From NCBI GenBank assembly GCA_021781795.1, contig JAJXWA010000001.1, positions 1 to 64,000 on the forward strand: a stretch of 64,000 bases of DNA, given 5' to 3'. Origin of the DNA: Acidobacteriota bacterium (GTDB lineage: Bacteria > Acidobacteriota > Terriglobia > Terriglobales > Acidobacteriaceae). Shown one piece after another: positions 37,383 to 53,170 of this stretch. A model generated the notes under the pieces. The model was not told where the DNA came from. It made no database searches and worked only from the letters and a program-made list of their open reading frames with translations. How positions within the stretch are numbered: the stretch's first letter is position 1; each line of letters opens with the position of its first letter. A program made the position numbers and the translations under genes.

Positions 37383-38363
37383 GTGGACCCGGCCATCAGA
37401 CCGCTCGCGCTCCGCGAGTATCGGAACTACCTAAGGGTAGAAAAGGGACTGCGCCCCTTGACGTGTGAAGCGTATGCCGGTGATTTGCATACGTTTGCTG
37501 AACTCATGGCACGGCGCGAAGTCCCCCTTGAAAAGGCCACACAGCAGGATGTGATTATGTTTCTGGAGCATCTCCACGGACTGGGGATGGATTCGCGTTC
37601 CTGCGCCCGGAAACTAAGCTCATTGAGGGGCTTTTACAAGTGGCTGTTGTTGGATGGAAGGATCCAACACGATCCGACCATCAATGTTGAGTCCCCGAAG
37701 ACCTGGAAGGTCCTTCCAAAGGCGCTTGCCGAACCGGAAGTCAATGAACTGCTAAATCGTGCTGCTCTTTCTGCAGCCCATCCCCAGGCCAGGGCAGCCG
37801 ATCTTCGCGACCGCGCAATTCTCGAGTTACTTTATGGGGGAGGTTTGCGCGTTTCAGAGCTCACCGCGCTTGCCGTCTCCGACATTGTGTTCGATCAAGG
37901 CAGAGTGCTGGTGAGGGGAAAAGGGGACAAAGAGCGGATTGTGCCCCTCGGGCGCGCAGCATTGGAGACCATGGAGGCCTATCTTCGCGAGGGACGCCCT
38001 CACCTGGCCAGGATCAGTTCTTCGCGCAAGAAATTGAATGCGCGCGCAGATGGGGCCATACTATTCTTGTCGCTCCGAGGCACTCCTCTCACACGGCAAT
38101 GGGTTTGGCGCTTGGTAAAGGCTGTGGATGCAAATGCCAGCCCGCACACGCTCCGCCATAGCTGCGCCACGCACATGGTCGAGCATGGAGCGGACTTGCG
38201 TAGCGTCCAGTTACTGCTTGGACATGCGGACATTGCAACGACGCAAATCTACACTCAGATTGCACTCGGACACTTGAAGTCTGTGCATCGCCTTCATCAT
38301 CCCCGCGCGAGGCTACGCGGAAATCCCCTGAAGATGGTCGAGGAAAGTCCAAAGAAGCCATGA
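37383..38363 (+). CDS. Xer-type tyrosine recombinase (first of tandem pair)
   Basis: A 326-residue recombinase of the XerC/XerD size class. An N-terminal core-binding SAM-like domain (about 8-95) is followed by a catalytic domain with R156 (GGLRVSEL), K180 ([12 protein letters not shown]), H255/R258 ([10 protein letters not shown]), H281 ([11 protein letters not shown]) and nucleophile Y290, so it is complete. It begins with GTG 37383; no strong ribosome site. Its stop overlaps the next Xer gene (ATGA), so both are made together. Xer proteins resolve chromosome dimers at dif with FtsK; here both partners seem to be encoded side by side, which is unusual. Assigning C or D by sequence alone is uncertain. 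Confidence 0.92.
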
Positions 38364-39340
38364 CAACACCGCAACCGGCAAGTGACTCCGCGGGCGCTCT
38401 CAGCCCACTCGTTGAAGAGTATCTTCGCGCCCTTCGCGTGGAGCGAGGGGCATCGGAGCACACATTGCGCGCGTACACGCGAGAAGTGAACGCATTCGCC
38501 TGCTTCGCCGTGGCCGAATGTAGCGGTTGTTCCGTGCCGGATCAGATCGATCACAAGCTCATACGCGCGTATCTATCCAGTCTCTTCGATCGTGGACTAT
38601 CCAAGACGTCGGCTGCCCGGTCTCTCGCGGCCGTGCGGAGCTGGTTCAAGTGGCTGGCTCGCATGGGATATGTGCAACAGAACGTTGCCGCTCTCGTGAC
38701 CACGCCGAAGCTGCCGCGCCATCTCCCCCGTGTGCCCTCGATCGAGCAGTTGAACCAAGTTGTGGATTCGGTTGGCAGCGAAGCATCGAGCTGGCCCTCA
38801 CGAGACCGAGCCATCATGGAATTGCTGTATGGCTGCGGGATGCGCAACGCTGAACTTACCGGACTGGATATCCCGGATATTCATTGGGCCAACGAGGTGA
38901 TCCTGGTGCGGGGCAAAGGGCGAAAGCAGAGATACGTTCCGCTGGGCGAAGCAGCAGCCGCAGCGCTCCGGGAATATCTGGAAGAGAGAAAGCTCCGCCT
39001 TGCCGCTATGCCAGATGCGGTAGGCCAGGGCCCGAAGGCCGTATTTCTGAATCTCAAGCTGCGAGGACTTCAGAAAGCTGACAAGCAGGCGCGTCTGACC
39101 ACGCGCAGCGTGGGGCGCATCGTCAAGCGGATCGCGATCATGGGAGGTCTCTCCGGTGATTTTCATCCGCATACGCTGCGCCATGCCTGCGGCACGCACC
39201 TGCTGGAGGAAGGAGCCGACTTACGGGCGATTCAGGAATTGCTGGGCCATGAGAGGCTCTCGACCACGCAGCGCTACACCCAGTTGACAGCAGCGCAACT
39301 CACGCAGGTGTATGACAAGTCACACCCGCGTGCACGGTAG
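38360..39340 (+). CDS. Xer-type tyrosine recombinase (second of tandem pair)
   Basis: A 326-residue tyrosine recombinase with intact active site: R162 (GCGMRNAEL), K186 ([12 protein letters not shown]), H271/R274 ([10 protein letters not shown]), H297 ([11 protein letters not shown]) and Y306. The N-terminal domain has SASHTLRAY-type Xer features ([16 protein letters not shown]). It overlaps the preceding recombinase by four bases (ATGA), giving equal expression. It is similar to, but clearly diverged from, the first one, as XerC and XerD are from each other. The alternative, a mobile-element recombinase pair, is less likely because no inverted repeats or cargo surround them. No dif-like site was recognised nearby. 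Confidence 0.92.
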
Positions 39341-39368
39341 GGACGTCAAATAGGTTATCTGGTGAGGA

Positions 39369-41183
39369 TTAGAAATCCACCTTGCGTGACGGAAACCAGG
39401 TGAGCTGAATGTTCGTGGTGGTCACGGTATGCTGTGGCGCAGGATAGGTCGGAGTTCCCGTGGGATAGATGGGAGCTTTCCAGTGTTCGAAGGTGAAGTT
39501 TCCATCGACTTCAAGATCTCGCTTGATACGCTTGACGGCGCGAAATGTCAGATCATCGATGGTTGTCCCGCCGGGGATGAAGTCCTTTGCAGCTTTTTGA
39601 TTGCGCGCGCTGACTTGCAGCCACTCATTGCCGCTGAGGTGATAAGTCATCCAGGCCTGACCGCCCTTATCTTCGCGTCCGATCCAGTCACCAAAAATCA
39701 TTCCCTTGTTGGTGTAGCCCTGGCGCTGGATTGCTTCGAAATACATAAAATGCCCGCCATTGCTGTTAGAGATGGAGGGGTCTGTAGAAACTGCTTCCAG
39801 CCGCGCATCTAGCTTGGGGATTCCAGGCACATGCGAGAGATAAATTCCGGGTCGAATTGCAGCGCGCCGGGGCGCATCGATTGGTGAGACATCGTCATGC
39901 ACTTCTGAGTCCGAATAGAGGGTCAGCCAGCGCCGAACGAATGGAAGCCGGTACGCAAAGTCGAACTGCCCAAATCGTGCTCCGGGATCCTTCGTGCTGT
40001 TTTTAACTGCGGCGGTTACGTTCTGGAAACTGAAGAAACTCTGCAGAAAGGTGTGCAGGGTGATGGGTTCATGACCCTTTCCGCCCCAGATTACCGTGCG
40101 TTCAAAACCAAATTCGAGATTCTGGGTTGGCTTGAAGCTTACCTTCTCAAAGTGCACCCAGGGCGAATTTGGATCCGTATGTCCTTTGAGCGATCCAACC
40201 ATGAAGTCATAGCGGAACGGGCCTGTGAGGGCTGAAAGCAGGGGGATGTGCAGCGGCTCGACTCTGTTGATGCGGAACGAATAGATGTTCTCCGCATTGT
40301 TTGAGTACGCAAATCCTCCGCCCATCGCAGTCCCTAGCCAGGCGTCCTGCTTACCTAGCGATATTTCATGATTTGCGAAAAGTGCGGAAATATAGGCTTC
40401 CATCCAACGACCATTTGCCAGGGACGAGATCGGTCCCTGTGGAATCGTTGCCTGATTATAAGGCAACCCGGTCGCGGGGTTGATGTAGGGGATCTGATCG
40501 AGATTAGAAAGGGTCTGCGACATTGCGCTAGAGTAACCCGCCGCAGAGGGAACTCCCTGAAACTCGCCGCGCGCATACAGCACAAAGCGGCCTGCGGAGG
40601 CATAGCCGCTCGCGCCGGAATAGTTATTGAATCCGCCCTCATAAGGGCGCCCGTAGTCGTTCACTATGGATTGACCGAGGTAGTAGCTATCCCGTAGAGG
40701 AGTTCCGGTGATTCCGCGCATGAGGGTATAAGCTGACTCTATCCGCGCCTTGCCCTGCATCCGAAGGCAGGGTCCTTCCATGTCCTTATCCAACTCCTCG
40801 CGGAGCGACTCGTAGATGCCCTGAGCCTCATCTGCTGCGGGGCTCTTGTCGTCATCTTCGAGGCGTGCAGCAGTTTCTTCGAGCATGTGGCTGAGGCTGG
40901 CGCGAGTCCATGGACGAAGGCCGAGGAAAACGCTGTCGACGTACCCGAGCGAGTAGAGGCGCATGACTTCTGGATACATCCAGTTGTCGACTGAGATGTA
41001 GGGCGAGCCCATCATGGACGGTTCGCAAACCGAATCCGGCGCCGCCGGGTGGGCAGTCTGCGCTGAGGCTGATAGCGGCAGAGCCACGAAGCCGAGAGCA
41101 GCAAGCAGGATCGCCGGGCAAGTTGCCACATAAAAACTGTGTCTGGAAGTGCGATTCGGACCCGGGGAATGACGAAGACTCAT
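39369..41183 (-). CDS. Wzi-family (capsule assembly) outer-membrane protein
   Basis: A 604-residue protein with a signal peptide (to about 42, LSASAQ) and a beta-barrel-like body rich in alternating aromatic strands (YYLGQSIVNDYGRPYEGGFN, FGFERTVIWGGKGHEP). The pattern matches the capsule assembly protein Wzi family, outer-membrane lectin-like barrels that help tether polysaccharide to the surface; in Acidobacteria members are numerous and their role is unproven. The C-terminus ends in LTWFPSRKVDF, plausible for barrel insertion. The N-terminal 140 residues are helical and acidic (LEDDDKSPAADEAQG). It begins three bases after the E1-alpha-like gene, so the two probably share a transcript. No other capsule genes are adjacent. 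Confidence 0.85.
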   Translation of the reverse strand: MSLRHSPGPNRTSRHSFYVATCPAILLAALGFVALPLSASAQTAHPAAPDSVCEPSMMGSPYISVDNWMYPEVMRLYSLGYVDSVFLGLRPWTRASLSHMLEETAARLEDDDKSPAADEAQGIYESLREELDKDMEGPCLRMQGKARIESAYTLMRGITGTPLRDSYYLGQSIVNDYGRPYEGGFNNYSGASGYASAGRFVLYARGEFQGVPSAAGYSSAMSQTLSNLDQIPYINPATGLPYNQATIPQGPISSLANGRWMEAYISALFANHEISLGKQDAWLGTAMGGGFAYSNNAENIYSFRINRVEPLHIPLLSALTGPFRYDFMVGSLKGHTDPNSPWVHFEKVSFKPTQNLEFGFERTVIWGGKGHEPITLHTFLQSFFSFQNVTAAVKNSTKDPGARFGQFDFAYRLPFVRRWLTLYSDSEVHDDVSPIDAPRRAAIRPGIYLSHVPGIPKLDARLEAVSTDPSISNSNGGHFMYFEAIQRQGYTNKGMIFGDWIGREDKGGQAWMTYHLSGNEWLQVSARNQKAAKDFIPGGTTIDDLTFRAVKRIKRDLEVDGNFTFEHWKAPIYPTGTPTYPAPQHTVTTTNIQLTWFPSRKVDF

Positions 41184-41186
41184 ACT

Positions 41187-42161
41187 TCAAACTGTATCAT
41201 TCTGCTCGGTGGCGAATAGCGAAATTGGACGCTTCATTTCACCTCCATCCCCCTTATTGCGCAGCGCTTTACTAGCTCTGCTCTTGGGGTTCGCGGCACG
41301 AAAGGACCTCAGAAACCTCTCTGCAGACCGGTGGCAGAGGTCCGGGTCAAACATACCGCGTTGGCGCAAGTATTCTTCCATGCGCCCCAATCCGTCCCGG
41401 CCTTTCGCGGTCGGCCGAGTCTTTTCGTTGCGGCAGACAATGAGTGTGGGGCCGCGGCCCTGCCGTGCACGGCTCAGAGACTCATAAACAACGCGATACA
41501 GCGCGACAGCGTCGAGTGCGTCCGTCAGGATGAGGGGAACGCCATGCACTCGCGCACTTCGCGCCATCCCTGCAAATTGGCCCAAACCCGGAGACGCTTC
41601 ATGGTTCATGAAAATCATCGGCAGACGGCATTTGCTGGCCAGGGTCAGTACCTCGCCCCAACAGGCCGACGTCGCGCCTGAGCCTGAGCAGAATACTGCA
41701 ACGACGCTTCCCGGAGCAGCATTCGCCCGTCCCAGGGCCAAGCCGCAAGCGAGATGGAGTTGCGTGGCTGTGGACTTCGCAGCAGGCGCGACATTTTCCT
41801 TCGACAAGCCGGTGAGCCGCGGCGAATGCGGTCCGTGACTTTTGCTCACAGGCAGCGCCATTTGCAGGATGGAGCGCAGTGGCTGTCCTTTCAGGAAGCC
41901 TGCCGCGGAGTCCACTGCCGGAAGACTCAACGCATCTTCCGCTTTTAAATCCGCAGTCAGAGACGCCAGCATTGCTTCGTGCCCCGCAACTGGTCCACAT
42001 ACCGCATGGCCACTCCCGACCTTCAACCTGCGAAGTTCATCCCGCAACAGGTGGCAATTCAGTATGGATTGGTAGATTGCGAGCAGTTTTTGCTCGGAGA
42101 TCAGTGAAAAAGCAGACGTTCCGTCTGAGGCAGCTTGCTGCCCTTTCCTCCTGGAAGTCAT
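41187..42161 (-). CDS. E1-alpha-like thiamine-diphosphate-fold protein, degenerate motif
   Basis: A 324-residue protein aligned by eye with the alpha subunit of 2-oxoacid dehydrogenase E1: LLAIYQSILNCHLLRDELRRL, then GPVAGHEAMLASL (GxEA motif), then HLACGLALGRANAAPGSVVA and GEVLTLASKCRLPMIF. The thiamine-diphosphate motif GDG-x(24-27)-N should be here, but reads SGSG (160-162) ... MNH (N186). The metal-binding Asp is Ser161, which argues against normal thiamine-diphosphate/Mg catalysis. The C-terminus is basic and lacks the usual phosphorylation loop. No E1-beta, E2 or E3 gene is nearby. It starts 44 bases after argJ; the start at 42161 has weak AAGG support. It may be a pseudoenzyme or have a different role, possibly linked to the Wzi-like gene that follows at once. 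Confidence 0.75.
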   Translation of the reverse strand: MTSRRKGQQAASDGTSAFSLISEQKLLAIYQSILNCHLLRDELRRLKVGSGHAVCGPVAGHEAMLASLTADLKAEDALSLPAVDSAAGFLKGQPLRSILQMALPVSKSHGPHSPRLTGLSKENVAPAAKSTATQLHLACGLALGRANAAPGSVVAVFCSGSGATSACWGEVLTLASKCRLPMIFMNHEASPGLGQFAGMARSARVHGVPLILTDALDAVALYRVVYESLSRARQGRGPTLIVCRNEKTRPTAKGRDGLGRMEEYLRQRGMFDPDLCHRSAERFLRSFRAANPKSRASKALRNKGDGGEMKRPISLFATEQNDTV

Positions 42162-42205
42162 TGGCCTTGGAACCTCATGCGACGAAAATACGGGACGCTC
42201 GCTGG

Positions 42206-43417
42206 CTAAGTGGAGTAGTCAGCATTGATGCGAATGTATTCATGTGTCAGGTCTGTGGTCCAGAACGTGCAGTTGCCCGTGCCCTGGTGTAATTGGATGC
42301 GAATGGAAAAATGCGACTGCTTGATGTACTCGTGTAAAGCGGCCTCGTTGAAGGCTGGAACGCGAGCGCCATCGCTGCATACCGGAAGCTCTCCGAACCA
42401 GATGTCGATTCGCTCCGGGGCGATCGAAGCGCCGGAATAGCCGATTGCAGCTATCAGCCGTCCCCAGTTGGGATCGCAGCCAGCCCAAGCGGTTTTGACG
42501 AGCGGGGAATGGGCAATCGCCTTGGCGATTCGCAGCGCATCGCCGTCGGAGGCTGCGCCTTCGATTCTGAGTTCCACGACATGCGTAATGCCTTCGCCGT
42601 CCGCCACAATTTGCTTTGCCAGCGAAGTACACACTTGTTTCAGTGCCCTGTAAAATTCGTTGTGGTTGGGTCCGACCTGCACGCCGCTCGCGCCGCTTGC
42701 CAGCAGGAGCACGGTGTCGTTCGTGGATGTGTCGCCATCCACTGAGATGCGGTTGAAGCTTAACTCCACAGCCTGCTGCAAATAGGCATTCAGGATAGCT
42801 GGCTCAACCGCCGCGTCCGTCATGATGTACACCAGCATGGTGGCGTGCGGAACGAGTTGCGGATGAATCATGCCGGCGCCCTTGCCGACCGCGGCGATGC
42901 GGACTTCCTTGCCGTCCATCTCCATGCGCGCGAATGCGGTCTTCTCCACTGTGTCCGTGGTCATCATCGCCTGCGCGACCTGCTGAAAGTGATCACTTTC
43001 CCGGCCGAGCGAAGCGGCGATTCCAGGAAGAACCGCGATCAGTTTCTCCGAGGGCAATGGCACTCCGATGATGCCGGTGGAAGAAGGGAAGACCTCGTCG
43101 GGGCTGCACGCGAATTGCGCGGCGGCTGCTGAGCAGGTTGCGCGCGCCGCGTCCAGTCCTGCCTGGCCTGCGGCGCAATTTGCATTACCTGCATTGATGG
43201 CGACAACCCGGATACGGCCGCTCGCTTTGCTCAAGTGCTCCTTGTCGACGATCAGCGGTGCGGCGGTCACTCGATTCGCCGTAAACATTGCCGCTGCAGA
43301 GGCGGGTGCATCTGCGACGATGAGCGCAAAATCCGTTCTGCCGCTTTGCTTCAGACCTGCACGGCCTGCACCAAAGCGAAAGCCCTTCGGGATGAAAAAT
43401 TGAGAGATTTCAGACAT
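42206..43417 (-). CDS. argJ: Bifunctional ornithine acetyltransferase/N-acetylglutamate synthase
   Basis: A 403-residue ArgJ, which moves the acetyl group from acetylornithine to glutamate in the arginine cyclic pathway. The self-cleavage site is HATML (Thr193), preceded by KGAGMIHPQ; cleavage before Thr gives the alpha and beta chains. INAGNANC (74-81), FPSSTGIIG (about 110-118) and the C-terminal CDPNWGRLIAAIGYSGA are as expected. Length is normal. It is the first gene on the minus strand, divergent from the ABC ATPase; no other arg gene is present. Whether it is mono- or bifunctional is not decided by sequence alone. No ARG-box-like site was recognised. Confidence 0.97.
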   Translation of the reverse strand: MSEISQFFIPKGFRFGAGRAGLKQSGRTDFALIVADAPASAAAMFTANRVTAAPLIVDKEHLSKASGRIRVVAINAGNANCAAGQAGLDAARATCSAAAAQFACSPDEVFPSSTGIIGVPLPSEKLIAVLPGIAASLGRESDHFQQVAQAMMTTDTVEKTAFARMEMDGKEVRIAAVGKGAGMIHPQLVPHATMLVYIMTDAAVEPAILNAYLQQAVELSFNRISVDGDTSTNDTVLLLASGASGVQVGPNHNEFYRALKQVCTSLAKQIVADGEGITHVVELRIEGAASDGDALRIAKAIAHSPLVKTAWAGCDPNWGRLIAAIGYSGASIAPERIDIWFGELPVCSDGARVPAFNEAALHEYIKQSHFSIRIQLHQGTGNCTFWTTDLTHEYIRINADYST

Positions 43418-43465
43418 TGTCCCAAGAGGAAGTTCCGCATTTAATCTAGCAGGTTAGGGGGCGGA

Positions 43466-44284
43466 ATGGCTGAAGCCGAAGACCTGTCTCATGCGAGTGA
43501 TTTTCTTGAACTGCAGAACGTGCGGGTGGCGCGGGGCGAGCGAGTTGTGCTCCATGACATCAACCTGATTATTCGTACTGGGGAGCATGTCGCAATCCTT
43601 GGTCCGAACGGATGCGGCAAGTCCACGCTAATTCTCACGATGACCTGCCAGATTTATCCGATCGTGAGGCCGGGCATGCAGGTCCGCATCTTTGGCCGCG
43701 AACGGTGGGATCTGACCCAGTTGCGCCGCCACTTTGGCGTGGTGAGTGCGAGTGTTGCCGGCGCCGAATTGCCGGGAGAGCGCACCGCGTTGACCACAGG
43801 ACTCGACGCGGTAATTGCAGGCTTTTTCTCCGCATCCACTCTGTGGCCCAATCTGCACGTGACGGAAGAGATGCGGGAACGGGCATGGGAGGCGCTGGAT
43901 CGGATCGAGGCGCGGCGGTTAGCCCTCCAACTCGTCGGTGAAATGTCGGCCGGGGAGAAGCGGCGCATCATGATTGCACGTGCGCTCGTTCATCGGCCTC
44001 GGCAATTGCTGCTCGACGAGCCCTCCAATGCGCTTGACCTGGCAGCGCAGCGAGACCTGCGCGAAACGCTGCGACGGCTTGCCGCAGAAGGTACGGGAAT
44101 GGTGATGGTGACCCATCATCTTGGAGATATTCTTCCTGAAATCGAACGCATCATTCTCATGCAGAACGGCAGAATTGTTGGTGACGGGTCACGACGCGAG
44201 CTGCTTTCGGAAGCCCGGCTCAGCGAACTGTTTCATACGCCAGTCCGCGTCGGCCACGATGAGGAATGGCTGCATAGCTGGTGA
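43466..44284 (+). CDS. Orphan ABC-type ATPase (YlmA/ModF-like)
   Basis: A 272-residue ATPase with Walker A GPNGCGKST (46-54), signature MSAGEKRR (160-167, in place of LSGGQ), Walker B LLLDEP (181-186) and the His switch VTHHLGDI. The order and the MSAGEKRRIMIARAL form resemble YlmA/ModF-type single-domain ATPases often grouped with molybdate or iron uptake. No permease or binding protein lies next to it, so a transport role is unproven; it may serve a distant permease or a non-transport function. The start ATG has GGGGG a few bases upstream. It is divergent from argJ with 48 bases between. Confidence 0.88.
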   Translation: MAEAEDLSHASDFLELQNVRVARGERVVLHDINLIIRTGEHVAILGPNGCGKSTLILTMTCQIYPIVRPGMQVRIFGRERWDLTQLRRHFGVVSASVAGAELPGERTALTTGLDAVIAGFFSASTLWPNLHVTEEMRERAWEALDRIEARRLALQLVGEMSAGEKRRIMIARALVHRPRQLLLDEPSNALDLAAQRDLRETLRRLAAEGTGMVMVTHHLGDILPEIERIILMQNGRIVGDGSRRELLSEARLSELFHTPVRVGHDEEWLHSW

Positions 44285-44400
44285 ATCTGAAGGAGGTGCA
44301 GACTCCTCGGCATTTCACCATCGCTAATCACTTGGATTCCTGATACAAATGGAGGCACACCGCGCATCTGCCCTATTTCGCGCGGATGAAGGAGGCGCAT

Positions 44401-45285
44401 ATGAGCCCACTATCTCGGCGCGAGTTTATCAAGTCATCACTGGTCGCCGGAACGCTGGCGAGCGTCAGCAATCTCCCGATGCATGCTGCGCAGCTGCCTG
44501 CCACCGAAGCGGTGACGCTGGGTAAATCGGGTATCAAGGTGACTCGCCTTGCCTTTGGAACCGGCAGCAACAATGGCTATGTGCAGGCGGCGTTAGGGCA
44601 GACACAGTTCACGGAGCTCGTGCATTATGCATACGATCGCGGCATTCGCTTCTTTGAAACAGCAGAGGCGTATGTCACTCCCGCCATGCTGGGAGAAGCC
44701 CTCAAAGGTATTCCAAGAGATAGCTATCAGTTGATGAGTAAGGTGACGACTGATCCTGGGGTCGATCCCGGGAAGCGTTTTGACGAGATGCGCCGCGTTT
44801 CTCAGACGGAGTACTTCGACATCATGTTGCTCCATTGGCAACACACGTCTGACTGGGTGGCAGAGACGCAGCGCTGGCAGGATGGCATTCTGGAGGCTCA
44901 GGCAAAGAAATCGATCCTGTCTCGGGGCGCGTCGGTGCATGGACTGCCGGCGCTCCGTCAGATGCCCGGCAACAAATGGCTGGAAGTCGCCATGATCCGG
45001 ATGAACCACAACGGAACACGGATGGATGGTCCAACATCTGCAGACAACAATAATCCGTCGAGCGTTTCGGAAGTCGTCCAGCACGTGAAGCAGGTTAAGC
45101 AGGAAGGAATGGGTGTGATCAGCATGAAGCTGGTCGGGAACGGGGCCTTCACAAAGCGAGAGGATCGCAAGGCTGCGATGCGCTTTGCGTTTCGCAATGC
45201 GGGTGTTGATTGCGTCACGGTCGGCTTCAAGAGCAAAAGTGAAGTTGATGAAGCAATCGAGAATCTGAACCTGGCTCTTGCCTAA
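44401..45285 (+). CDS. Tat-exported aldo/keto reductase-like protein
   Basis: A 294-residue aldo/keto reductase-fold protein. A twin-arginine signal (SRREFIKSSLVAG) precedes the barrel. The catalytic tetrad is visible: FFETAEAY (Glu in place of the usual Asp, and Tyr), Lys in LMSKVT, His in LLHWQ. The C-terminal NADPH-binding portion (MKLVGNGAF and GFKSKSEVDEAIENL) is typical of the Mocr/YqhD-like bacterial group. The Asp-to-Glu change may alter activity. Export through Tat implies that cofactor is bound before export. ATG 44401 is chosen because GGAGG lies five bases upstream; an in-frame ATG at 44386 is inferior. The 244 bases after the gene, up to tRNA-Ser, hold nothing that I recognise. 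Confidence 0.88.
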   Translation: MSPLSRREFIKSSLVAGTLASVSNLPMHAAQLPATEAVTLGKSGIKVTRLAFGTGSNNGYVQAALGQTQFTELVHYAYDRGIRFFETAEAYVTPAMLGEALKGIPRDSYQLMSKVTTDPGVDPGKRFDEMRRVSQTEYFDIMLLHWQHTSDWVAETQRWQDGILEAQAKKSILSRGASVHGLPALRQMPGNKWLEVAMIRMNHNGTRMDGPTSADNNNPSSVSEVVQHVKQVKQEGMGVISMKLVGNGAFTKREDRKAAMRFAFRNAGVDCVTVGFKSKSEVDEAIENLNLALA

Positions 45286-45529
45286 TTTGCGCAGGCACCC
45301 GGCCGAGGCTCAAGAGTTCGTGAGGCTCCAAGGCTTATCGGGCTTGGATAGCGGTTGACGCGAATCGGGATCAATCCTCGTGAAGGCAGATTTGAGAGTG
45401 TACTGTGAGATACCCGGAGTTCGTACTAGTTGGCAAGTGCGCAGAGTATGCGTAGGTTTAATGACCCTGCAAGGCCGCTTACCTAATCCCTCTATCTTTA
45501 TGATTCCAAGAAGCGCTTTTGGAATTTAA

Positions 45530-45619
45530 TGGCGGAGAGAGTGGGATTCGAACCCACGTTAGAGTTTCCCCTAAACACGCTTTCCAAGCGTGCGCCTTCA
45601 ACCACTCGGCCATCTCTCC
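45530..45619 (-). tRNA. tRNA-Ser (anticodon GGA)
   Basis: A 90-base tRNA with acceptor GGAGAGA/TCTCTCC, anticodon stem CACGC/GCGTG around loop TTGGAAA (anticodon GGA), a long variable arm (AGGGGAAACTCT) typical of serine tRNAs, T loop TTCGAAT and an encoded CCA. A plus-strand frame across it is a shadow. Confidence 0.97.
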
Positions 45620-45811
45620 TAGGCAGGGTTATGACTCTTTGAATTTATCACAGGCGATGCTCCTCTTGATGAAGCCGGCAGCTTCCCGCGTCGGCATTGC
45701 GCCTTTCAATGAAATCGTTTACTTTGCAGCGAGTACTCCTATATAGTTCAGCCGTGCGCTCGAGGGCACGCCTTGCGCGCCTGAAAAATTCTGCATGGAA
45801 CAGGGGACAAC

Positions 45812-48343
45812 ATGGCTGGCATCACACGTCGAGATCTGCTTGCATCGGGAGCCGCTTTCTCCGCTTCGACCTTGATCACGAAGCGAGCCTGGGCTCGTGC
45901 CGCTGCGGCGATGGCTGGTTCGTCTGCAGCGGAGAATGCAGCAGTTCAGACCGCGGTGGCTCCGCGCGAGAGGTTGCTTTTCGACTTTGGCTGGCGGTTC
46001 ACGATGGGCAATGGAGCCGATCCTGCGAAAGACCTTGGCTTCGGCATGGGAGAAGGTGACTTTGCCAAGACAGGCGAATTTGAATTCGCGAAGTCCAAGT
46101 TCGACGACTCCAAGTGGCGAGAGCTCAACCTACCCCATGACTGGGCGATCGAGTTGCCATTTGTGCACGACGAAGAGCAGAAATCGCACGGCTACAAGCC
46201 GCTGGGGCGGCGCTATCCAGACACAAGCGTTGGTTGGTATCGGCGCGTATTTGAAGTCCCAGAAAGCGACCGAGGCCGCCGCGTGTCCATTGAGTTCGAT
46301 GGCGTCTTTCGCAGCGTATTGGTCTTTGTGAATGGTTGTTTTGTCGGCCGCAATGACAACGGCTATGTGCCGTTTCGCTTTGACCTGACCGACTTTCTGG
46401 CGATCGGCGCCAAGAACTATATCGTCGTGCGCGTGGATGCGAGCTTCGGTGATGGATGGTTTTATGAAGGCGCGGGAATTTACCGGCATGTGTGGTTAAC
46501 CAAGACAGACGCTCTCCATCTGGGCGACTGCGAGAGCATCGTGCGCTCTGCGGTGAGCGGTTCTTCTGCGAAGCTTGACCTCATCGCACGAGTCGTCAAC
46601 GAAGGCAAGCAGGCAGAGCAAGCGCGCGTTACCTGGAAGATTCAGGACGCGAGCGGCAACACCGTTGCAACCGCGGAGGCGCCGGCTCAATCTGTGATTG
46701 CTGATGGAGCACAGACATTCTCATCGACAGCCCATCTTGCTGATGCGAAGCTGTGGTCCGTGGACGAGCCGAATCTCTACACTGCGGTCGTCGCTGTGGA
46801 GTCTGCGGGCACGGTCCGCGATGCGGAGCGCGTGCAATTTGGAGTGCGCACCGCTGTCTTCGATGCCGAAAAGGGATTCTTTCTGAATGGCAAATCGCTC
46901 AAGATCCAGGGCACCTGCAATCACCAGGATCACGCCGGTGTCGGTGCTGCGCTGCCTGACCGCCTGCAGACCTACCGACTTGGCGTGCTGCGCGAGATGG
47001 GTTGCAACGCTGTGCGCACCTCTCACAACATGCCGACCCCGGAGTGGGTGGATGCCTGCGATCGCATGGGCGTGATGATGATGTGCGAGACACGGCAGAT
47101 GAGTTCCAGCCCTGAGGGACTGGCCCAGTTGGACGGCATGGTCAAGCGGTATCGGAATTCGCCCTCGATCATTATCTGGTCAATTGGTAATGAGGAGTTC
47201 ATTCTGCAGTCGCCGATGGCGGAGCAGGGACAAAAGATCGCTGCGACGATGGTGCAAAGATGCCATGAACTTGACCCGACGCGCGTGGTTTCCGCCGCCG
47301 TGAATGGAGACAACCGGAAGGGAGTCTCCGTGCCACTAGACGTCATCGGATTCAACTACCAACTGCAACAACCGGACAAGTTTCACAAGGATTTTCCAAA
47401 GAGGGCACTGTACGGATCGGAGACCTCCAGCGCAATTTCAACGCGCGGCGTATACACCACCGATCCGTTGCGTAATACCGTGAACGCCTACAACGGAGTG
47501 GTGCGCTGGGGTGAAACCGCGGAAGAATGGTGGACCTTCTATGGAACCCGGGAGTGGGAAGCGGGCGGCTTTGCGTGGACCGGCTTCGACTATCGCGGAG
47601 AGCCTACACCCTACGGCTGGCCATCCATCAACTCGCAATTTGGCATCGTGGATATGTGCGGGTTCCCGAAGGACACTTTTTATTACTACAAGGCCTGGTG
47701 GGGCAAAGAGCCGGTCCTGCATCTGTTCCCGCACTGGAACTTCGAGGGCAAGGAGGGAGATGAGATTCCGGTGTGGGTCTACTCGAATGTCGATGAGGTT
47801 GAGCTTTTCGTCAATGGCGCGAGCATGGGCGGCAAGCAGGTGCCGCATCTCGGTCATGTGGAGTGGAAGGTGAAGTACGAACCGGGTGTGATTGAGGCGC
47901 GCGGGAGCAAAGGCGGCAAAGTAGTTCTCACGGAGAAGCGAGAAACGACAGGGCCGACAGTGGCGATCCGGCTGATTGCAGACCGCACGACCATCGACGC
48001 AGATGGCCAGGATCTCGCAATCCTGACCGTGGAGGCGCTGGATTCACAGGGTCGCGCGGTGCCAACTGCAGACAATCTGATTCGCTTCAATGTCTCTGGT
48101 GACGGTGCGTTGCTTGGAGTGGGCAACGGCGATCCCAATTGTCAGGAAAGCGACAAGGGACCGACACGCTCGCTCTTCAGTGGGCTGGCGCAGGTCATCA
48201 TCCAATCGACCAAGCGTCCTGGTCAGATTTTTATCGAGGCGGTGAAGGAAGGCTGGGATGGCCCTGAACTGACGCCGGCCAAGCTTTCGATTACAACAAG
48301 AACAGTGCCTCTTTCACCGTCCGTTCCGATTGTGCGTAGTTAA
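45812..48343 (+). CDS. Tat-exported GH2 beta-galactosidase-like enzyme
   Basis: An 843-residue glycoside hydrolase family 2 protein. A twin-arginine signal (ITRRDLLASGAAF) is at the N-terminus. The sugar-binding domain (about 55-230) contains LNLPHDWAI; the immunoglobulin-like domain follows; the TIM barrel holds the acid/base Glu461 in WSIGNEE and the nucleophile Glu537 in YGSETSS. The C-terminal beta domains (about 650-830, GLLGVGNGDPNCQESD) match DUF4982-type extensions of bacterial exported GH2 enzymes. It probably removes beta-galactosyl or related residues from plant or microbial glycans outside the cytoplasm. It stands alone; a terminator hairpin follows. A ribosome site is not strong (GGGGACA just before the ATG). 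Confidence 0.95.
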   Translation: MAGITRRDLLASGAAFSASTLITKRAWARAAAAMAGSSAAENAAVQTAVAPRERLLFDFGWRFTMGNGADPAKDLGFGMGEGDFAKTGEFEFAKSKFDDSKWRELNLPHDWAIELPFVHDEEQKSHGYKPLGRRYPDTSVGWYRRVFEVPESDRGRRVSIEFDGVFRSVLVFVNGCFVGRNDNGYVPFRFDLTDFLAIGAKNYIVVRVDASFGDGWFYEGAGIYRHVWLTKTDALHLGDCESIVRSAVSGSSAKLDLIARVVNEGKQAEQARVTWKIQDASGNTVATAEAPAQSVIADGAQTFSSTAHLADAKLWSVDEPNLYTAVVAVESAGTVRDAERVQFGVRTAVFDAEKGFFLNGKSLKIQGTCNHQDHAGVGAALPDRLQTYRLGVLREMGCNAVRTSHNMPTPEWVDACDRMGVMMMCETRQMSSSPEGLAQLDGMVKRYRNSPSIIIWSIGNEEFILQSPMAEQGQKIAATMVQRCHELDPTRVVSAAVNGDNRKGVSVPLDVIGFNYQLQQPDKFHKDFPKRALYGSETSSAISTRGVYTTDPLRNTVNAYNGVVRWGETAEEWWTFYGTREWEAGGFAWTGFDYRGEPTPYGWPSINSQFGIVDMCGFPKDTFYYYKAWWGKEPVLHLFPHWNFEGKEGDEIPVWVYSNVDEVELFVNGASMGGKQVPHLGHVEWKVKYEPGVIEARGSKGGKVVLTEKRETTGPTVAIRLIADRTTIDADGQDLAILTVEALDSQGRAVPTADNLIRFNVSGDGALLGVGNGDPNCQESDKGPTRSLFSGLAQVIIQSTKRPGQIFIEAVKEGWDGPELTPAKLSITTRTVPLSPSVPIVRS

Positions 48344-51328: not shown

Positions 51329-53170
51329 ATGGCGACTGGAGACCTGGCCCTGGGTCAAGAACAGGGCGCTTTGAATGCGCAAAAGCGCGTCGTGAATGAT
51401 TTCAGCATCAACGTAGCAACGGTGAACGGGTCCGGCTCGCAATCCGCCAATAGCGTGCTGCTGAAGAGCATCTTCGGAATGGGGGTTCCCGTCAGTGGCA
51501 AGAACCTCTTTCCCTCGAATATTGCCGGACTTCCCACCTGGTACACCATTCGTGCGAGCAAGGACGGGTACGTCGCCCGCAAGCGCGATGCAGAGATTCT
51601 GGTGGCGCTGAACGTAGAAACAGCCAAGCAGGACATCCTTAACCTTCCCGTCGGCGGAGTGGCCATCTATGAAGAGAGCCTGAATCTCAAGCAATACCGC
51701 GACGATGTGGCCTGCTATCCGGTTCCTTTTGACAAGATCACGGCCGCCGTATGCCCTGAAGCCAAGCTGCGCAAGCTGGTCAGGAACATGGTCTACGTAG
51801 GCGTGGTCGCCCAGTTACTCTCTATCGATCTTGCCGTCGTAGAACACGGGCTTAAGAAGCAGTTTGCTAAAAAGCAGAAGGTTTTCGACCTCAACTTTGG
51901 CGCGGTGAAGGCGGGCTTTGACTACGCTCAGGAGAAGCTGGTCAAGCACGACCCCTTCGTCCTGGAGCGGATGGACAAGAGCGCCGGCCAGATCATCATC
52001 GACGGCAACGCCGCCTGCGCAATGGGCGCGGTGTTCGCTGGCGTCACGGTCGTGGCCTGGTATCCCATCACACCTTCTACCTCGGTTGTTGAGGCGACCA
52101 CAGACCTGCTGAAGAAGCTGCGCGTGACGCCCGAAGGTAAGGCGACATTTGCCGTTGTACAGGCGGAGGACGAACTGGCGGCAATCGGGATGGTGCTCGG
52201 CGCGGGATGGGCCGGAGCACGCTCCATGACGGCGACTTCGGGACCCGGGATTTCGCTGATGGCGGAGTTCTCCGGCCTGGGCTATTTTGCCGAGCTGCCC
52301 GGAGTTATCTTCGATGTGCAGCGCTCCGGGCCTTCGACAGGCATGCCCACGCGCACCTCGCAGGCTGACCTGCTCTCAACCGCATTCCTGTCGCATGGCG
52401 ATACAAAGCACATCGTGCTGCTGCCCGGCTCCGTCAAGGAGTGCTTCGAGCATGGCCTCGCCGCATTCGATCTGGCTGAGCGCTTCCAGACCCCGGTCTT
52501 CGTGCTTACCGATCTTGATCTGGGCATGAATAACTGGATGTCGGAACCCTTCCAGTATCCTGACAAGCCGCTGGATCGCGGAAAGGTACTGACTGCAGAG
52601 GACCTCGAAAAGCTGGGCGGATTTGCTCGTTATCGTGATGTCGATGGCGACGCAATCGGCTGGCGCACCTTGCCGGGCACTCGCCACCCCAAGGCGGCGT
52701 ATTTCACGCGCGGCTCGGGGCACAACGATTCTGCCGGCTACACCGAGAAGCCTGAGGAATACCAGGCCATTATGGACCGGCTCAGCCGTAAATTTGAGAA
52801 CGCGCGGAAGGCTGTGCCCGCTCCGGTGATCGTGAAGAACGGCACGTCGAAGGTAGCTTTCATCGCGTATGGCACCACCGACTTCGCGCTTCAGGAAAGC
52901 CTGGATCAGATTAAGAAGGAACGCGGCGTGGATGTGGATTACCTGCGCGTGCGCGCCTATCCCTTCGCGCATGAGATTCATGACTTTGTGGCATCGCACG
53001 AGCGCGTGTATATCGTCGAACAGGATCGCGACGCGCAACTGGCAAGCCTGCTCAAGCTGGATTTGCCGGCCGAGCAGGTGACTAAGCTGCGCAGCATTCT
53101 GCACTACAACGGTCTGCCGCTCGACGCACGCACCATCACGGAAGAGTTTGTCGCCAAGGAGGGCCTGTAA
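51329..53170 (+). CDS. korA: 2-oxoacid:ferredoxin oxidoreductase, fused gamma-alpha subunit
   Basis: A 613-residue subunit of a CoA-dependent 2-oxoacid (most likely 2-oxoglutarate) oxidoreductase that transfers electrons to ferredoxin. Residues about 20-210 are the gamma domain (VATVNGSGSQSANSVLLKSIF), fused to the alpha part, with DGNAACAMGAVFAG, WYPITPSTSV and FDVQRSGPSTGMPTRTSQAD. This fused form equals the Mycobacterium KorA type. The start ATG 51329 lies about ten bases after AAGGGA; the open frame runs 269 codons further back through the MATE gene in another register and is not real. korB begins in the stop codon. No ferredoxin gene is adjacent. Confidence 0.93.
   Translation: MATGDLALGQEQGALNAQKRVVNDFSINVATVNGSGSQSANSVLLKSIFGMGVPVSGKNLFPSNIAGLPTWYTIRASKDGYVARKRDAEILVALNVETAKQDILNLPVGGVAIYEESLNLKQYRDDVACYPVPFDKITAAVCPEAKLRKLVRNMVYVGVVAQLLSIDLAVVEHGLKKQFAKKQKVFDLNFGAVKAGFDYAQEKLVKHDPFVLERMDKSAGQIIIDGNAACAMGAVFAGVTVVAWYPITPSTSVVEATTDLLKKLRVTPEGKATFAVVQAEDELAAIGMVLGAGWAGARSMTATSGPGISLMAEFSGLGYFAELPGVIFDVQRSGPSTGMPTRTSQADLLSTAFLSHGDTKHIVLLPGSVKECFEHGLAAFDLAERFQTPVFVLTDLDLGMNNWMSEPFQYPDKPLDRGKVLTAEDLEKLGGFARYRDVDGDAIGWRTLPGTRHPKAAYFTRGSGHNDSAGYTEKPEEYQAIMDRLSRKFENARKAVPAPVIVKNGTSKVAFIAYGTTDFALQESLDQIKKERGVDVDYLRVRAYPFAHEIHDFVASHERVYIVEQDRDAQLASLLKLDLPAEQVTKLRSILHYNGLPLDARTITEEFVAKEGL

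Follow-up and report, generated by a model that had tools for sequence, protein, structure and literature searches.

Pseudoenzymes are generally encountered as ancient paralogues. One catalytically dead pseudo-subunit is the E3-binding protein of the pyruvate dehydrogenase complex. The S-adenosylmethionine decarboxylase prozyme is listed among pseudoenzymes in a table of PMC10211241. In Acidobacterium capsulatum, aceEF and por are transcribed, according to PMC11636273. The open-access literature searched returned no description of the protein reported here, a degenerate homologue of the pyruvate dehydrogenase E1-alpha subunit. Its gene lies in the 64,000-nucleotide stretch of DNA that was analysed (the window), in the following context:

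37383..38363, plus strand: second Xer-type recombinase, downstream flank (PF00589, E=3e-41)
38360..39340, plus strand: Xer-type recombinase, convergent, downstream flank (PF00589, E=4.7e-45)
39369..41183, minus strand: Wzi-family gene, inherited neighbour, 3 bases downstream (PF14052, E=2.7e-114)
41187..42161, minus strand: E1-alpha-derived pseudo-subunit, the subject of this analysis (324 aa; PF00676, E1-alpha fold, cofactor residues absent)
41433..41543, minus strand: conserved module VDGxDVVAVYRVxxE...GPTLIEC, residues 207-243 (invariant columns, dN/dS 0.07)
41676..41687, minus strand: place of the GDG/GEG metal motif, codons of residues 159-162 (SGSG), from the alignments
42206..43417, minus strand: argJ, upstream neighbour and usual locus marker (PF01960, E=2.2e-142; synteny)

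The original prediction had placed an E1-like and a Wzi-like ORF at these positions with three bases between them, and both are found as described, exactly three bases separating the TGA of the former from the ATG of wzi. On the other side, 44 bases separate it from argJ, also on the minus strand. The Wzi-like ORF encodes 604 residues, of which PF14052 (382.7 bits) covers 160-576 and thus most of the protein. The absence of an adjoining E1-beta, E2 or E3 gene, likewise predicted, is confirmed for the eight neighbour proteins scanned (37383-48340), and tblastn with nine E1-beta proteins returns no E1-beta relic within 3 kb of the locus. Scans for promoters (2 sites, shuffle mean 1.3) and terminators (5 sites, shuffle mean 4.2) stay close to the shuffled sequences. 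The two recombinase genes overlap and form a tandem (37383-39340), and the same pair lies downstream of the locus in many relatives. Elsewhere in the window, a POR_N domain (52025-52516, 1.8e-50) within an 885-residue open frame on the plus strand marks a gene of the 2-oxoacid:ferredoxin oxidoreductase type. The assembly from which the window is taken comprises 3.4 Mb and is 87.7% complete.

The 324-residue protein returns a hit with the Pfam E1_dh family (PF00676, E=1.5e-9, 37.7 bits for a cut-off of 22). Its predicted structure (mean pLDDT 84.8, pTM 0.83) has 3dv0_A as top Foldseek match (3.3e-14), and VIA-align superimposes it on 1w88_C with a Z of 27.8 over 263 residues (rmsd 2.9). According to this model, the protein keeps the fold of pyruvate dehydrogenase E1-alpha, chance resemblance being excluded, in line with the earlier claim that the rest of the fold is kept. 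For the Mg-TPP-binding residues and their catalytic roles, we assume the assignments of general family knowledge. The window protein has lost each of the four cofactor features examined. At the place of the metal motif G[DE]G it reads GSG when aligned to Thermus 1um9 and SGS in the family alignment, a one-residue gap difference with no Asp or Glu at the motif either way; the proposed change of GDG to GSG, with Ser161 replacing the Asp, therefore holds as the loss of the acidic residue. The companion claim that the Asn of the motif is kept does not, since the residue in question is Asn186, which is not the metal ligand, and the place of the NN pair is taken by Glu188-Ala189, the second metal ligand being gone. 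The Arg of the "HRD" is Val83, and the "YGHS" loop is missing together with its His, whose position is gapped. The three active-site loops measure 30, 22 and 15 residues in the window protein, compared with 32, 29 and 31 in the intact reference L175. It belongs to the E1-alpha superfamily by descent and fold, and we do not file it as an E1-alpha enzyme because the defining catalytic features fail. With the NCBIfam equivalog TIGR03181 it scores 64.9 bits for a cut-off of 411.35, which three intact relatives also fail to reach (~304 bits). PF00676 is matched by all 25 members scanned; such genes can pass for pyruvate dehydrogenase E1-alpha and would thereby mislead metabolic models.

Of 80 genomes of the window's genus, 77 contain a match to the family profile, as do 234 of 250 at family level; both totals include ordinary E1 genes. 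The locus survey started from 141 sequences (the window and 140 loci) and retained 120 distinct loci for counts once L188 and L189 (no match), 17 duplicates, L187 (the fused E1 of the window's own genome) and L113 (an archaeal MAG) had been dropped. The 80 named loci are those most similar to the query out of 167 and the others were hand-picked, so that the 120 are not a random sample; the "next gene" is the next recognised one in the reference set, with unrecognised ORFs possibly between. E1-beta lies directly downstream of 35 of the 37 intact E1-alphas versus 0 of the 83 non-intact copies, the two exceptions being L059, at a contig end, and L087, whose E1-beta is cut by one. Thirteen intact pairs directly follow argJ, as the pseudo-subunit gene does in the window, and two intact pairs, L043 and L082, come from the genus of the window itself. 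In six distinct loci (L043, L044, L051, L082, L219, L220), wzi comes after the intact pair. Because intact pairs follow argJ and intact pairs precede wzi in six loci, the ancestral order is taken as argJ - E1-alpha - E1-beta - wzi - xer. The sequences show that the window gene derives from a pyruvate dehydrogenase E1-alpha, of the α2β2 type, encoded after argJ. Acidicapsa dinghuensis has the intact pair, and the degenerate form occurs in Edaphobacter, Granulicella, Occallatibacter savannae and Paracidobacterium. The loci read include those of cultivated non-pathogens, namely Edaphobacter lichenicola, Granulicella sp., Acidobacterium sp. S8 and Occallatibacter savannae. Two wzi-family genes in tandem lie downstream of the pseudo-subunit in L179 (3891-7793), and two are also present in L065 and L073. 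The L113 contig, titled Desulfurococcales archaeon, carries E1-alpha and E1-beta genes 42% and 49% identical to those of Acidobacteriota, a possible case of misbinning or transfer.

GDG/GEG is kept in none of the 83 non-intact loci, and its loss is thus a family trait. None of the cofactor features remains in 60 of these copies, a single one in 20 (11 Arg, 6 Asn, 3 His), two in one, and three in L225 and L229, residues in the eroded stretches being placed by alignment only. At least one loop is short by three residues or more in 79 of the 83 non-intact versus 0 of the 37 intact copies. The idea of a pseudoenzyme, with catalytic residues absent and the fold kept, is therefore upheld and extends to many Acidobacteriaceae relatives.

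The transition itself is visible in genus g143, in which L230 and L231 encode intact pairs, while L229 and L225 carry E1-beta stubs of 26 and 18 residues that are 85% (E 2e-8) and 83% (E 0.002, a weak match) identical to the E1-beta of L231. Both stubs overlap the end of the E1-alpha frame (L229:8054-8131; 3' end of the E1 ORF in L225) and are the remains of a recent deletion. The L229 and L225 proteins display early active-site changes, including DEG for GEG, and L234, of the same genus, is more eroded with its frame still open. This tblastn search, which covered 3 kb around the loci without a called E1-beta with the same nine proteins, otherwise matched the contig-end-cut E1-beta of L087 and, at chance level, L112 (0.43) and L093 (0.47). 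The locus tree was built from ArgJ (78 rows, quick search), since long-branch attraction was feared in a tree of E1-alpha. It nests the intact loci within degenerate ones, and parsimony on it counts 4 changes. On the midpoint-rooted tree, a loss-only count, which presumes no transfer of the intact block, gives 7, 9, 12 and 20 degenerations at collapse thresholds of 95, 90, 80 and none. The comparison shows that E1-beta was deleted more than once in the family, and two separate degenerations are clearly supported, that of L225/L229/L234 with L230/L231 as intact relatives and that of L066/L107 with the Acidicapsa group.

Among pairs of loci with ArgJ 70-80% identical, the median E1 identity is 85% for intact copies (16 pairs) versus 33.5% for degenerate ones (403 pairs), and Wzi identity is 64-66% in both. 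Because E1 identity drops at equal ArgJ distance with Wzi unchanged, E1 evolution became much faster with degeneration. The reading frame has nevertheless been kept, 81 of the 83 non-intact ORFs forming one open frame that spans the family profile. Simple Nei-Gojobori estimates, made on relatives in pairs that share sequences and of which several have a high dS, give a median dN/dS of 0.226 (range 0.10-0.55) for 26 degenerate pairs with dS below 2 versus 0.169 for 249 intact pairs; the window protein, whose nearest relative is ~45% identical, is in none of them. Pooled over 16 degenerate pairs, dN/dS is 0.07 in residues 207-243, 0.17 in the N-terminal helix, 0.24 in the former cofactor strand and 0.22 in the C-terminal region, versus 0.033, 0.12, 0.057 and 0.098 in nine intact pairs, both sets being hand-chosen among close pairs that share sequences and the 16 including the early pair L225/L229. 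The latter reaches 0.46 overall and 0.78 in the former cofactor region, with 0 in the module. Five of the ten columns inspected, those of Asp214, Asp217, Arg223, Glu227 and Arg233, show no variation across all 48 degenerate rows, the window included, and the same residues occur in 22, 22, 17, 20 and 22 of 22 intact or early rows. As far as sequences can tell, strong purifying selection is shown on one strand-helix-strand module, residues 207-243, and selection appears to have moved to it from the cofactor site. Since this module is also constrained in active E1-alphas (0.033), its conservation could be mere fold maintenance.

Regarding the dehydrogenases that remain, AceE is present in 197 of 250 family genomes; the window's genus contributes 17 genomes to the sample, none with AceE and 16 with a match to the family profile. 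AceE is not a universal partner, because it is absent from all 17. It occurs in 25 of the 29 genomes that carry a non-intact copy versus 2 of the 12 whose argJ locus is intact (hand-chosen genomes, kinship uncorrected; 42 in the table, one of which, G110, has an intact pair elsewhere, and L222 being scored as an argJ locus with argJ off its contig); calling AceE absent here presumes that the same 250 genomes were sampled in the AceE and the family-profile searches. Outside the window's genus, loss of E1-beta mostly goes with the one-chain E1, AceE. Of the 83 non-intact loci, 18 have aceE adjoining the pseudo-subunit gene on its upstream side and 4 on its downstream side and, among the matches listed and read by eye, the two orders occur in at least 21 and at least 15 genomes, which argues for more than one arrangement event. 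In L256 (6824-7669), L257 and L233, the order is argJ - pseudo-subunit - aceE - wzi, with AceE at the former place of E1-beta.

In the window's own genome, the sole AceE match (1.6e-5) turned out to be a transketolase and was discarded. The only 2-oxoacid dehydrogenase E1 found there is a fused alpha-beta protein on contig C47, the other PF02779 matches being a transketolase (C20), DXS (C34) and a transketolase-like half (C75), and further PF00676 matches likewise being of transketolase or DXS type. An E1-beta partner for the window protein is thus neither adjoining nor found elsewhere in this 87.7% complete assembly, the C47 domain being fused to its own E1-alpha. Two adjacent frames on C75 (L188:5329-7328) match one transketolase half each, below the curated cut-offs, and form a split transketolase-like pair. 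The single E2 (C20) passes two succinyltransferase (SucB) model cut-offs and no pyruvate dehydrogenase model, and the genome encodes a full NifJ-type pyruvate:ferredoxin oxidoreductase over the curated cut-off. This oxidoreductase was considered as the E1 replacement in the window's genus and rejected, its presence across the 250 genomes being unlinked to E1 status. Three genomes of the genus are without both AceE and the NifJ-type enzyme at the thresholds used. The window's lineage may no longer have a dedicated pyruvate dehydrogenase complex.

The reading that we tentatively favour, and to which we give nearly an even chance, is that of a retained pseudo-subunit that would scaffold or regulate a 2-oxoacid dehydrogenase component. 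The sequences show the deletion of E1-beta downstream of E1-alpha at the argJ locus, the loss of the cofactor residues from the orphan alpha subunit and, in most copies, shortened active-site loops, together with the retention of the E1-alpha fold, of the reading frame, of the 207-243 module and, usually, of the genomic place. Through this module, the non-catalytic protein may bind a remaining component, possibly AceE or E2 in AceE-bearing relatives and the fused E1-alpha-beta (C47) or E2 (C20) in the window's organism. Several observations weigh against such a role: the lack of AceE in all 17 genomes sampled from the window's genus, the SucB-type E2 and the pyruvate:ferredoxin oxidoreductase of the window's own genome, the conservation of the module in active E1-alphas too, the small difference between the all-pair dN/dS medians, and counts uncorrected for kinship; besides, adjacency to aceE may just result from AceE having landed at the former E1 locus. 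We are doubtful of the more specific proposal that orphan E1-alphas were converted repeatedly and independently to prozyme-like partners of the replacement dehydrogenase (AceE, fused E1 or E2) via the VDG-helix module. A possibility of slightly more weight, still well short of even, is a neofunctionalised binding protein outside pyruvate metabolism, for which the E1-alpha scaffold would be reused with another ligand or partner, its position being merely historical. Its persistence in a genus devoid of AceE and, at the locus, of E1-beta, the rapid sequence change outside the module, the three genomes also devoid of the NifJ-type enzyme and the succinyltransferase label of the own E2 are consistent with it, but the recurrent closeness to aceE in both orders and the past of the locus as an E1 operon are not what it would suggest.

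Decay and residual catalysis account less well for the data. A relic in slow decay, with no function as a protein and swept along with the conserved argJ and wzi, would explain the lost cofactor residues, shortened loops, fast divergence and high dN/dS values of L225/L229, but is improbable in view of the almost general open frame, of dN/dS staying within 0.10-0.55 in all 26 degenerate pairs and of the five invariant columns. A TPP enzyme that is still active with relocated cofactor ligands would agree with the kept fold, and pseudoenzymes with migrated residues are known (PMC10211241); we consider it very improbable indeed, given that metal motif, second ligand, Arg and His are all lost in the window protein, that its loops 2 and 3 are shortened and that the E1-beta half of the active site is absent. 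Lastly, the original prediction saw a special pairing of a pseudoenzyme with the Wzi envelope protein, and a functional partnership would fit with the three bases between the genes and with the fact that in 57 of the 83 non-intact loci wzi, on the same strand, is the first recognised gene to follow. The orphan E1-alpha adjoins wzi because the E1-beta between them was deleted, wzi being inherited from the intact operon, as the six loci with wzi after an intact pair indicate; the next recognised gene is xer, without wzi between, in eight non-intact loci and aceE in four. The gap to wzi, estimated in 51 of the 57 loci with wzi next, the window not among them, has a median of 154 bp, the smallest values being -69 (L110, a truncated frame) and 17, which makes the three bases of the window atypical. 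Reading of the E1-like sequence by eye reveals no secretion signal. A partnership with Wzi is therefore quite unlikely. Presumably active, intact pairs occupy the same place in relatives, which refutes the special pairing and at the same time explains the pseudoenzyme.

Returning to the pseudo-subunit, one locus in one bacterial family displays the whole series from an active pair, through deletion of the partner and erosion of the active site, to a dead but conserved protein, and the existence of parallel cases and of named isolates makes it possible to test why the dead subunit of a replaced enzyme persists. With the E1-alpha of the α2β2 pyruvate and branched-chain 2-oxoacid dehydrogenases (PF00676; 1w85/1w88, 1um9/1umd), the window protein shares the fold, the GxEA motif and the VDGxD strand-helix module, and intact relatives hold the same place after argJ. 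In contrast to this enzyme, it lacks GDG/GEG, the second ligand Asn, the Arg, the His and an E1-beta, and the loops are shortened in most pseudo-subunit copies. In other Acidobacteriaceae genera, the gene of AceE, the homodimeric E1 (TIGR00759), is often a direct neighbour of the pseudo-subunit gene; AceE differs from the pseudo-subunit as a one-chain enzyme of ~890 residues, not found in the 17 genomes sampled from the window's genus. If the proposed function holds, the likeness extends to the S-adenosylmethionine decarboxylase prozyme and to the E3-binding protein, both dead homologues of a complex component kept by selection. These two have shown functions and an active homologue alongside, whereas here it is the active subunit of the locus itself that was converted.
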